From Variovorax boronicumulans (GTDB lineage: Bacteria; Pseudomonadota; Gammaproteobacteria; Burkholderiales; Burkholderiaceae_C): a stretch of DNA of 64,000 nt. Under the pieces are notes generated by a model. That model was not told the DNA's origin. It was given only the letters and a program-made list of their open reading frames with translations, and searched no databases. Of this stretch, positions 4,536 to 5,874 are shown one piece after another. The DNA lies in the NCBI RefSeq assembly GCF_019352895.1, contig NZ_JAAAFX010000009.1:514764-578763 (forward strand), written 5' to 3'. Position numbers and translations under genes: made by a program. Within the stretch, counting starts at the first letter, position 1. The number at the start of each line of letters is the position of its first letter.

Positions 4536-4559
4536 GCAGGCCTGGCCAGGGGTGAGGGC

Positions 4560-4847
4560 TCAGTCCGGACGGACCTCGAAGTAGGCCTCGTCGGCGCCGC
4601 CCAGGTCGCGGAAGCCGGCCATCTTCGCCTTCTCGTAGGCCTTGGGCCAGGCGCTGGCCAGGGCAATTTCGTCCGCCGACAGCTCGTCGGCGCCCGATTC
4701 CGAGGCGTTCATGTAGGCCTTCAGCACTTGGCCGAGGTCCTCGCCCAGGGCTTTCTCCAGCGCGGCCCGGAAGCGTTTCTCGGCGGTGGCGATGCCCTCG
4801 GGCGGGAGGCCCGGAAATTCCCTGAGCCGGATGGTGGTTTCGATCAT
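4560..4847 (-). CDS. Conserved hypothetical protein, 95 aa, SOS-linked pair
   Basis: Not recognised. The 95-residue acidic protein starts MIETTIRLREFPG and is mainly helical in appearance, with an Ala/Glu/Lys-rich middle (AEKRFRAALEKALG) and an acidic C-terminus. There is no signal peptide or membrane segment. The ATG at 4847 was preferred to longer in-frame starts because the longer version would overlap the upstream gene and has low-complexity Arg/Ala/Gly content typical of a wrong frame. It lies 20 bp downstream of the 69-residue gene, so the two probably form an operon read from the promoter near the LexA box at 5104-5119. Its 3' end faces the end of wspR (25 bp apart). Confidence 0.6.
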   Translation of the reverse strand: MIETTIRLREFPGLPPEGIATAEKRFRAALEKALGEDLGQVLKAYMNASESGADELSADEIALASAWPKAYEKAKMAGFRDLGGADEAYFEVRPD

Positions 4848-4867
4848 GGGGTGTCCTTGGGTTGGAA

Positions 4868-5077
4868 TCAGCGCGCGGTGTCGGCCGCCACGATCTCCAC
4901 CGGCCCCATGCCGGCGTAGACGAGCTGGCCGCTGTCGCGCTCCACGATGCGCACCCGCGCGCCCTGGGTGCTCACCAGGTAGCATTCCGGCGCCAGGTCG
5001 AGCCGGATCTCTTCGGTCACGGTCGGTCCGAGCCAGGACGGCATCCGCAGCAGGGCGAGGTGGGGGCGATCGGTCAT
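4868..5077 (-). CDS. Small hypothetical protein, 69 aa, under a LexA-type box
   Basis: Not recognised. The 69-residue product (MTDRPHLALLRMPSW...) contains a probable beta-rich core (EIRLDLAPECYLVSTQGARVR) and no export signal. ATG 5077 was chosen because the DNA changes there from coding-like GC-rich sequence to an AT-rich promoter stretch; longer in-frame starts would read through the SOS box. The gene begins 27 bp from the perfect CTGT-N8-ACAG element at 5104-5119, and an AT-rich -10-like stretch (CACAAT on the minus strand) lies between. This arrangement implies repression by LexA and induction by DNA damage. First gene of a two-gene unit with the 95-residue protein. Confidence 0.6.
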   Translation of the reverse strand: MTDRPHLALLRMPSWLGPTVTEEIRLDLAPECYLVSTQGARVRIVERDSGQLVYAGMGPVEIVAADTAR

Positions 5078-5103
5078 GCAGTGACAATGAATTGTGAAAT
5101 TAA

Positions 5104-5119
5104 CTGTATGAATATACAG
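5104..5119. promoter_or_regulatory. LexA (SOS) box, perfect CTGT-N8-ACAG
   Basis: The sequence CTGTATGAATATACAG is a perfect dyad ends-wise match to the proteobacterial SOS operator CTGT-N8-ACAG, sitting in the only strongly AT-rich stretch nearby. It lies between divergent starts at 5077 (minus) and 5140 (plus). On the plus side TAGACT at 5128-5133 could be the -10, placing the box over the -35 region; on the minus side it also falls near -35. Control of both directions is plausible. Confidence 0.75.
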
Positions 5120-5139
5120 CTTTTCGCTAGACTCTGGCC

Positions 5140-5332
5140 ATGCATTCCATACCTGAAACCGAATGGGTCGCGGCCTGCGCGCACCGGCTGCAGCGGCACT
5201 GGCGAAGCGTCGATCCCCTGGAGCTCGAGGCCCTGGCCGCCGAGCTCGCGCATGACGAGCCTGCGCGCGATGCTGCCCACGCTGGCGGCGAGCGAGTGGC
5301 TCAAGCCGATCGAGCCAGCCGAGCCGGCCTGA
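5140..5332 (+). pseudogene. Small hypothetical gene with probable frameshift at about 5260
   Basis: Reading from ATG 5140 gives a sensible start (MHSIPETEWVAACAHRL, then VDPLELEALAAEL). After the codons for His-Asp-Glu (5251-5259) the frame degenerates into Arg/Ala-rich sequence, whereas the +1-shifted frame continues sensibly (LRAMLPTLAASEWLKPIEPAEPA) to a TGA at 5330-5332. One extra C, or loss of two bases, near 5260 would explain it. The restored protein would be about 63 residues. No function is recognised. It starts 20 bp after the LexA box. A sequencing or assembly error is an equally good explanation for the frame break. Confidence 0.5.
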
Positions 5333-5380
5333 GGCTGCGTGCCGATGGCGCGCCGGCCGCGCGACCTGTACGCTGTGCGC

Positions 5381-5623
5381 ATGACCGATCGCATGCGCTC
5401 CATCTCCGTGCACGTGGGCGAGCCGCAGGCCGGCGCCTTCTACTGGGTGTTGATGGAGAAGGAGAGCGCGCACTGCAGCACGGTGTTCAACGAACTCGCT
5501 GCGGCGCGCAGGCCCGCGTCGACCTGGATCGCCGCACTGGAGGCCGGTGTCGACGAATTGAAGCGGCTGGCGGGCGATCTGGCCCGCGGACCGCGCGCGG
5601 AAGCCGATGGCCCGGAGGGATGA
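5381..5623 (+). CDS. Hypothetical protein, 80 aa
   Basis: Not recognised. The product begins MTDRMRSISVHVGEPQAG and shows a likely beta hairpin (ISVHVGEPQAGAFYWVLMEK) followed by a helix (TWIAALEAGVDELKRLAGDLA). There is no signal or membrane segment. An alternative ATG at 5339 would add 14 residues rich in Arg/Pro; the shorter start is preferred because residues after it are more protein-like. It follows the frameshifted gene by 48 bp in the same direction and may share its SOS-linked promoter. No terminator is evident after it. Confidence 0.5.
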   Translation: MTDRMRSISVHVGEPQAGAFYWVLMEKESAHCSTVFNELAAARRPASTWIAALEAGVDELKRLAGDLARGPRAEADGPEG

Positions 5624-5874
5624 GCGGCGCACCGTCGGCCGCCACCCGGGGCGCAATGCCTCATGTGCGGCGCGAGGGCGCCGTCGCCGATCCCGGGGCG
5701 ATGCCCGCGCGGCTCAGGCCACGGCGAACTTCTCGTCGCGCCACTTGAACGCGGCCTTGAGCCCGCGCTCGTGTGCGATGCCGAAGAACTCGCGCCGGGC
5801 CTTCGGGGCGGAGGCCGAGCGCGTGGGCACCCTGGCGGCCGAGGCTGATCGAGCCGGTGCTGCAGGTGAGCGTT
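5624..5874. other. Gap with a possible minus-strand coding remnant
   Basis: No convincing gene. On the minus strand a frame ending at TGA 5714-5716 reads protein-like near its end (REFFGIAHERGLKAAF, then KWRDEKFAVA) but has no good start and blends upstream into the 3' end of the COG2345 regulator gene. It may be the tail of a lost gene or chance. Confidence 0.25.

Follow-up and report, generated by a model that had tools for sequence, protein, structure and literature searches.

A LexA-type operator conserved with a predicted prophage-type module of small divergent genes in Variovorax boronicumulans

The DinI family comprises small LexA-regulated proteins that are common in prophages. In the Gifsy prophages of Salmonella, small antirepressors encoded outside the immunity region are under direct LexA control (Lemire et al. 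2011, PMC3121763). SRAP proteins (YedK/HMCES, DUF159) were in turn tied to SOS genes and reported from proteobacterial prophages (Aravind et al. 2013, PMC3765255), and work on the beta-proteobacterial LexA regulon, which covers Variovorax paradoxus among its species, reported the corresponding type of box and an SOS-linked splB-type gene (PMC3323433). In this work a 64,000-nucleotide stretch of the Variovorax boronicumulans genome (contig NZ_JAAAFX010000009.1; the whole stretch is referred to as the window) was analysed, in which a LexA-type box separates a rightward gene A from two leftward genes, B and C (Table 1). Comparison of homologous loci identified the box as very probably a real LexA operator and strongly supports the predicted LexA regulation of the module. 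The best-supported account appears to be that of a LexA-controlled accessory module of temperate phages, and we consider it probable that the box serves as the host LexA operator of a divergent, prophage-type small-gene module, of which the window would hold a chromosomal copy with a broken gene A.

This locus resembles the described systems in part. As in the Gifsy dinI/antirepressor region, a LexA box of prophage type would drive small genes outside an immunity region, but the relatives of the present module are linked to SRAP and mostly located near viral contig ends (PMC3121763). The SRAP neighbourhoods described in the portion of PMC3765255 that was considered include no mention of small families like A, B or C or of a shared LexA-type operator. 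A of the window has no SRAP next to it. Two hypothetical genes of the beta-proteobacterial regulon, hypA and hypB (PMC3323433), may overlap with A, B or C. With DinI the module shares small proteins and a LexA-type box, but neither the A pieces nor B or C match this family in a Pfam scan, and C is predicted to fold as beta-alpha-alpha-beta.

The initial annotation had pointed to a perfect CTGT-N8-ACAG pattern within an AT-rich gap of 62 base pairs (bp), and both are found: CTGTATGAATATACAG is the single perfect match within the window, and the gap (5078-5139) holds 24 G+C in 62 bp (39%) as compared to 68.7% G+C for the window. By itself the bare pattern is not significant, as dinucleotide shuffling of the window gave 0.53 expected matches and at least one match in 41 of 100 shuffles, and the pattern alone was rejected as evidence for an operator. 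Because it is no commoner in the genome than a reversed control pattern, the case for the operator rests on conservation. Loci of gene family A were taken from genome contigs (53) and viral contigs (30), the viral set possibly leaving out the window's own genome. Within 160 bp upstream of A, 52 of these 83 loci carry a perfect box, 29 a box with one mismatch and 2 neither, the respective values for control windows in the same loci (n=3461) being 0.26% perfect and 2.77% with one mismatch. A box with at most one mismatch is present in 72 of 74 distinct A start regions, and 17 of 19 A clusters (70% identity) retain it. A 20-bp weight matrix trained on the boxes of these homologous loci, with which the window's next-best site scores 1.9, identified a site in 81 of 83 A loci versus 1 of 620 other genes, the latter being predicted genes of the A loci (own gene finder, at least 60 amino acids) that start more than 700 bp from A. 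When trained on viral loci alone, the matrix identified a site in 51 of 53 genome loci, whereby 9 start regions are common to several loci, some of them spanning the viral and genome sets. The CTG and CAG letters of the box carry 1.9-2.0 bits, sites having been selected by those letters; unselected letters beside the core are conserved as well (A before it in 62 of 71, T after it in 62 of 71), and information falls to near zero in the more distant flanks.

Of the 32 matches listed for C, 30 were used, among them the window copy, and 25 of these showed a matrix hit within 1.5 kb upstream, the shuffled-control maximum being 5.8 in 146 windows; with the viral-trained matrix, 21 of 30 have a hit within 220 bp. 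Among C genes of viral contigs, 16 of 21 have a box within the available DNA up to 1 kb upstream, 8 of these having two, and part of the C genes use the same box as A. For B, a box deviating from the pattern at no more than one position is found within 700 bp upstream of all 11 hits, that in the window among them; for this length there is no matched control. Conservation of the box together with the genes in relatives, which had been proposed as a check, is hence seen for A, C and B, contrary to the loss of the box in most relatives that had been named as speaking against the reading.

The position of the box relative to A points to a promoter overlapped by the operator. Of 71 unique A upstream regions, that of the window among them, 58 contain a TANNNT hexamer whose first base lies between -14 and -11, in most cases at -12 (42) or -13 (14), as compared to 32 of 428 other genes, and a Shine-Dalgarno-like 4-mer occurs in 3 of the 71 regions versus 153 of the 428. 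Since the TANNNT hexamer lies just before the ATG and Shine-Dalgarno-like 4-mers are rare, A transcripts would be near-leaderless, their first base lying on the ATG or next to it, and the operator would extend over the -35 region and the spacer; the inferred -35 region falls within the left half of the operator. This left half-site reads CTGG instead of CTGT in 14 of 32 distinct boxes starting at -36/-37, in 0 of 19 at -28/-29 and in 6 of 21 at other offsets (16/38, 0/20 and 7/23, respectively, without de-duplication), as would be expected if the G also improved the -35 hexamer. In the window the half-site is CTGT.

Table 1. Features of the locus, in coordinates of the window.
Feature	Position	Strand	Basis or remark
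Gene C, 95 amino acids, open, predicted beta-alpha-alpha-beta	4560..4847	-	box upstream in 25/30 loci
Gene B, 69 amino acids, open frame	4868..5077	-	B-type gene in 29/85 loci (window and L028 counted)
LexA-type operator CTGTATGAATATACAG	5104..5119	.	perfect pattern, matrix score 21.2, conservation upstream of A
Inferred -10 hexamer TAGACT of gene A	5128..5133	+	6 bp before ATG
Gene A, family of about 61 amino acids, predicted three helices, frameshifted here	5140..5332	+	two-frame profile match
Gene F, 80 amino acids, small family of other A loci	5381..5623	+	cluster 13, 9 loci including the window

A regulator for such a box is present in the host, as a canonical LexA is encoded there (E 6e-67 against PDB LexA chains; TIGR00498 match), and lexA itself has a LexA-type box 36 bp before its ATG with a matrix score of 13.9. 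From the remaining 15 pattern sites of the genome, 8 were examined, picked mostly for AT-rich spacers, and 6 of these score at least 13.9 with the matrix trained on A-locus boxes. The boxes at or above this score are located at lexA, directly before imuA (NF033429), at two radical-SAM genes, at a helicase gene matching Helicase_C_2 and DEAD_2, which we take to be DinG-like, and at a gene of 123 amino acids; sites L007 and L008 score 9.0 and 10.6 and have no clear SOS gene. The boxed radical-SAM genes are of the TIGR03916 and PA0069 types (L001, box at 2772; L006, box at 2310), which agrees with the SOS link reported for beta-proteobacterial splB. The gene of 123 amino acids (L004, G000:C4:120500-125500) lies 41 bp behind another identical CTGTATGAATATACAG at 2478, and its C-terminal part looks by eye like the D/c3-type genes of the module.

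The leftward genes are open as annotated, but the rightward gene, initially described as having roughly 63 amino acids, is not a single open frame: similarity to family A extends from the ATG at 5140 to about 5271, where it switches to a different frame that leads to the stop at 5330-5332, and a profile search matches two separate pieces (5140-5271 and 5255-5320). The frameshift may be a sequencing error in this 15-contig assembly. The closest A copy found, that of Variovorax sp. UMC13 (L039), has an intact frame of 61 amino acids. Two further copies reside in the window's own genome, namely a second, fuller module on contig C1 (L028, L170) with intact A and SRAP, and an A copy with an in-frame stop and a one-mismatch box (G000:C10:87929-88087; L031, L171).

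The UMC13 locus has the same C-B-box-A order with 92% DNA identity over window positions 4556-5361, the 16-bp box being identical in both. Beyond this segment the two differ: 5362-5690 of the window is absent from UMC13, UMC13 contains roughly 6.7 kb, situated between A and the downstream regulator, without counterpart in the window's genome, and the left flank differs; window positions 5691-5840 match the final part of a UMC13 gene region that is enoyl-CoA-hydratase-like. An independently moving cassette of 800 bp, considered in view of the differing flanks, was dropped. As the UMC13 contig with this locus also carries the window's downstream regulator (96% identical) at a distance of about 7 kb, the site is the same, with neighbours gained or lost, and we read the window copy as chromosomal with a UMC13 copy at the same site.

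Substitution patterns were found to be those of constrained proteins for the first 40 codons of A (6 synonymous, 2 nonsynonymous changes) and for C (13 synonymous, 5 nonsynonymous; dN 0.024, dS 0.21), each compared with UMC13. Summed over 69 close A pairs, which are not independent, 1259 synonymous changes per 3069 sites and 674 nonsynonymous changes per 9807 sites were counted, and for the summed pairs of A, B and C the per-site rate is higher at synonymous sites. Identity of A to the UMC13 copy ranges from 41 to 69% among 29 sequences. Profile searches matched A in at least 72 of 101 genomes of the genus and C in at least 6 of 300 genomes of the order, and single-sequence searches of 200 genomes of the family found A in 8, B in 8 and C in 21.

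Regarding its genomic surroundings, the module resembles an SOS module of prophage type more than a stand-alone divergon of the host, because many relatives lie near viral contig ends beside SRAP, and a phage origin is likewise presumed for the window copy. In 25 of 30 viral contigs A lies no further than 10% from a contig end, and in 26 no further than 20%, these being ends as drawn by the database, which may partly be assembly ends. The abasic-site gene SRAP occurs in 18 of 53 genome and 20 of 30 viral A loci (38/83), 34 SRAP genes lie on A's strand within 900 bp downstream among 85 loci (L028 included), and the three SRAP genes tested all match Pfam SRAP. Genes of B type are present in 12/53 genome and 15/30 viral loci, C in 9/53 and 5/30, and D-type clusters in 20/53 and 25/30. 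Lysozyme-, holin-, methylase-, tail- and integrase-like neighbours of A loci were labelled by eye and are presumed to be such; one integrase-like neighbour was confirmed by Pfam. In Acidovorax phage AP1 (L172, 5551-6192), a box scoring 23.8 is followed by a gene that by eye looks D-type and by a B homologue; the annotated 'polymerase' (5394-5552) next to this box looks spurious. Copies of A were also observed near UmuC-type polymerase genes (L066, L075, L082; cluster counted in 4/85 loci), and in four loci (L033-L035, L103; Pfam tested on L035 only) a DUF72-type gene follows A instead of SRAP.

The initial annotation had stated that none of the proteins resembles known SOS genes, which agrees with the absence of credible matches for A, B and C in the family libraries searched. 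In Pfam, the A pieces, B and C of the window gave no credible match or match at curated cut-off, ten A members reached a best E of 0.031, taken as chance, and one C relative a best E of 0.056, below cut-off. No credible match was obtained in NCBIfam for the A pieces, B and C of the window, in PHROGs for ten A members, ten B members, B and C of the window and A of UMC13, or in PADLOC for B and C of the window and A of UMC13; a weak match to phrog_28151, a family without assigned function, was seen for L163, a C relative from a viral contig (E 3e-4). When PDB sequences were searched with profiles, the best E values were 0.65 (C), 0.26 (A) and 0.2 (B). Structure models of A (pLDDT 87.6, three helices) and C (pLDDT 88.5, beta-alpha-alpha-beta) yielded best Z values of 4.4 and 4.6 against the PDB, and no fold family is claimed because these hits are unrelated proteins; among viral structure models, similarity to C was seen in two uncharacterised phage proteins (TM 0.66, E 0.0055 and TM 0.56, E 0.0071). 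The idea of C being a DinI protein was dropped, as the Pfam scan, listed to an E of 10, shows no DinI for it, a search in which the A pieces and B did not match the DinI profile either and in which HMMER filters drop most hits above about 0.1; when the C model was aligned to Foldseek's top PDB chains only, all Z values stayed below 5. Among the top-ranked entries of searches in an open-licence PMC library, no paper on these genes was found.

Long C forms and many B proteins begin with a QxELF/QxEFF-like sequence (L036, L040, L041, L086, L087 and others), a loose pattern that occurs in 11 of the 24 unique sequences of B and in 7 of the 15 of C, and the short B and C forms of the window are without it. 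We take this motif to resemble the sliding-clamp motif; a related QxxLF-type pattern was absent from the three UmuC proteins checked, and the clamp-motif idea is thus without positive control.

Considering these data, the following sequence of events is suggested. Module relatives come largely from Variovorax and neighbouring genera, many of them lying near the ends of viral contigs, which would be those of temperate phages. Bound LexA would cover the inferred -35 region and spacer of the A promoter and, lying 26 bp from the B start, would silence both directions. Upon DNA damage, RecA-driven cleavage of LexA would release A, together with SRAP in fuller modules, and B-C. In the window copy, with no adjoining SRAP and a frameshifted A, B and C would be left as an open SOS-type pair. 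Because of the SRAP linkage, the most likely role of the proteins, put forward tentatively, is that of DNA-damage tolerance factors acting beside SRAP during the SOS response, with A perhaps assisting SRAP.

Several observations weigh against this account. Gene A is broken in the window, no SRAP adjoins it, and no phage genes were recognised in the first 14 kb of the window, the extent examined. The nature of the viral contig ends mentioned above is to be added here. A is also chromosomal elsewhere, e.g., next to a methyltransferase gene in six Variovorax loci in whose listed stretch no phage genes were recognised, and because of such loci A is not only a phage gene. A nearby box is missing from 5 of 30 C loci and from two of 83 A loci, namely L075, in which the gene ahead of A has a strong box in front of it, and L083, in which there is none, and the genome-wide count of CTGT-N8-ACAG is 16 versus 16 for the reversed control pattern. 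Finally, window B (4871-5077) differs from its UMC13 counterpart by 10 nonsynonymous changes and 1 synonymous change, unlike its neighbours. Positive selection on B, as this pair might suggest, was not adopted, as 11 other B pairs, several of which share sequence, sum to 180 synonymous changes per 595 sites versus 121 nonsynonymous changes per 1760 sites.

How far these points carry depends on the alternative considered. A chance palindrome beside ordinary genes would be in line with the 0.53 matches expected in the window and with a genome count equalling its control, but a box at 81 of 83 homologous loci as compared to 1 of 620 other genes, recurring at C homologues, makes this highly improbable. 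A different question is whether the box, albeit real, serves mainly other modules, the window unit being a decaying leftover without present function. This reading is compatible with the origin and regulation proposed above, and the frameshift in A, the stop in the copy at C10:87929, the lack of an adjoining SRAP, the differing left flank, the 6.7 kb missing to the right and the odd substitution pattern of B would all fit it; as the box is identical to that of UMC13, C is constrained, and B and C are open, we nevertheless regard it as unlikely.

The main functional rival assumes that A (or B/C) acts as a LexA-controlled antirepressor as in the Gifsy prophages, i.e., that it disarms a prophage repressor after damage and thereby triggers induction. 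It concerns function and keeps the LexA switch, so that its odds overlap with those of the account preferred here. Small proteins, a LexA-type box, the location near viral contig ends and the occurrence of several copies in some genomes speak in its favour, as does the precedent of small, directly LexA-controlled antirepressors outside the immunity region (Lemire et al. 2011, PMC3121763). Against it, SRAP often comes next after A (34 cases), and A persists at chromosomal sites at which no phage genes were recognised and is fairly conserved. An antirepressor function is judged to be quite unlikely. The preferred reading, a LexA-controlled accessory module of temperate phages, may be taken further, although in this extended form it is doubtful: A, B and C, together with D-type genes, could constitute at least three undescribed SOS effector families in a mobile, LexA-switched phage cassette of Variovorax and its relatives, with A as SRAP partner, with long B and C forms binding the sliding clamp via the QxELF-like motif, and with hosts having adopted copies as chromosomal SOS genes.

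Taken together, at least two protein families without credible library match, A and C, are strongly linked to a LexA-type operator. The module may hence serve as an entry point to the ways in which the DNA-damage alarm of common environmental bacteria is exploited by their temperate phages, and SRAP, an abasic-site protein shared with animals, gains candidate small partners.
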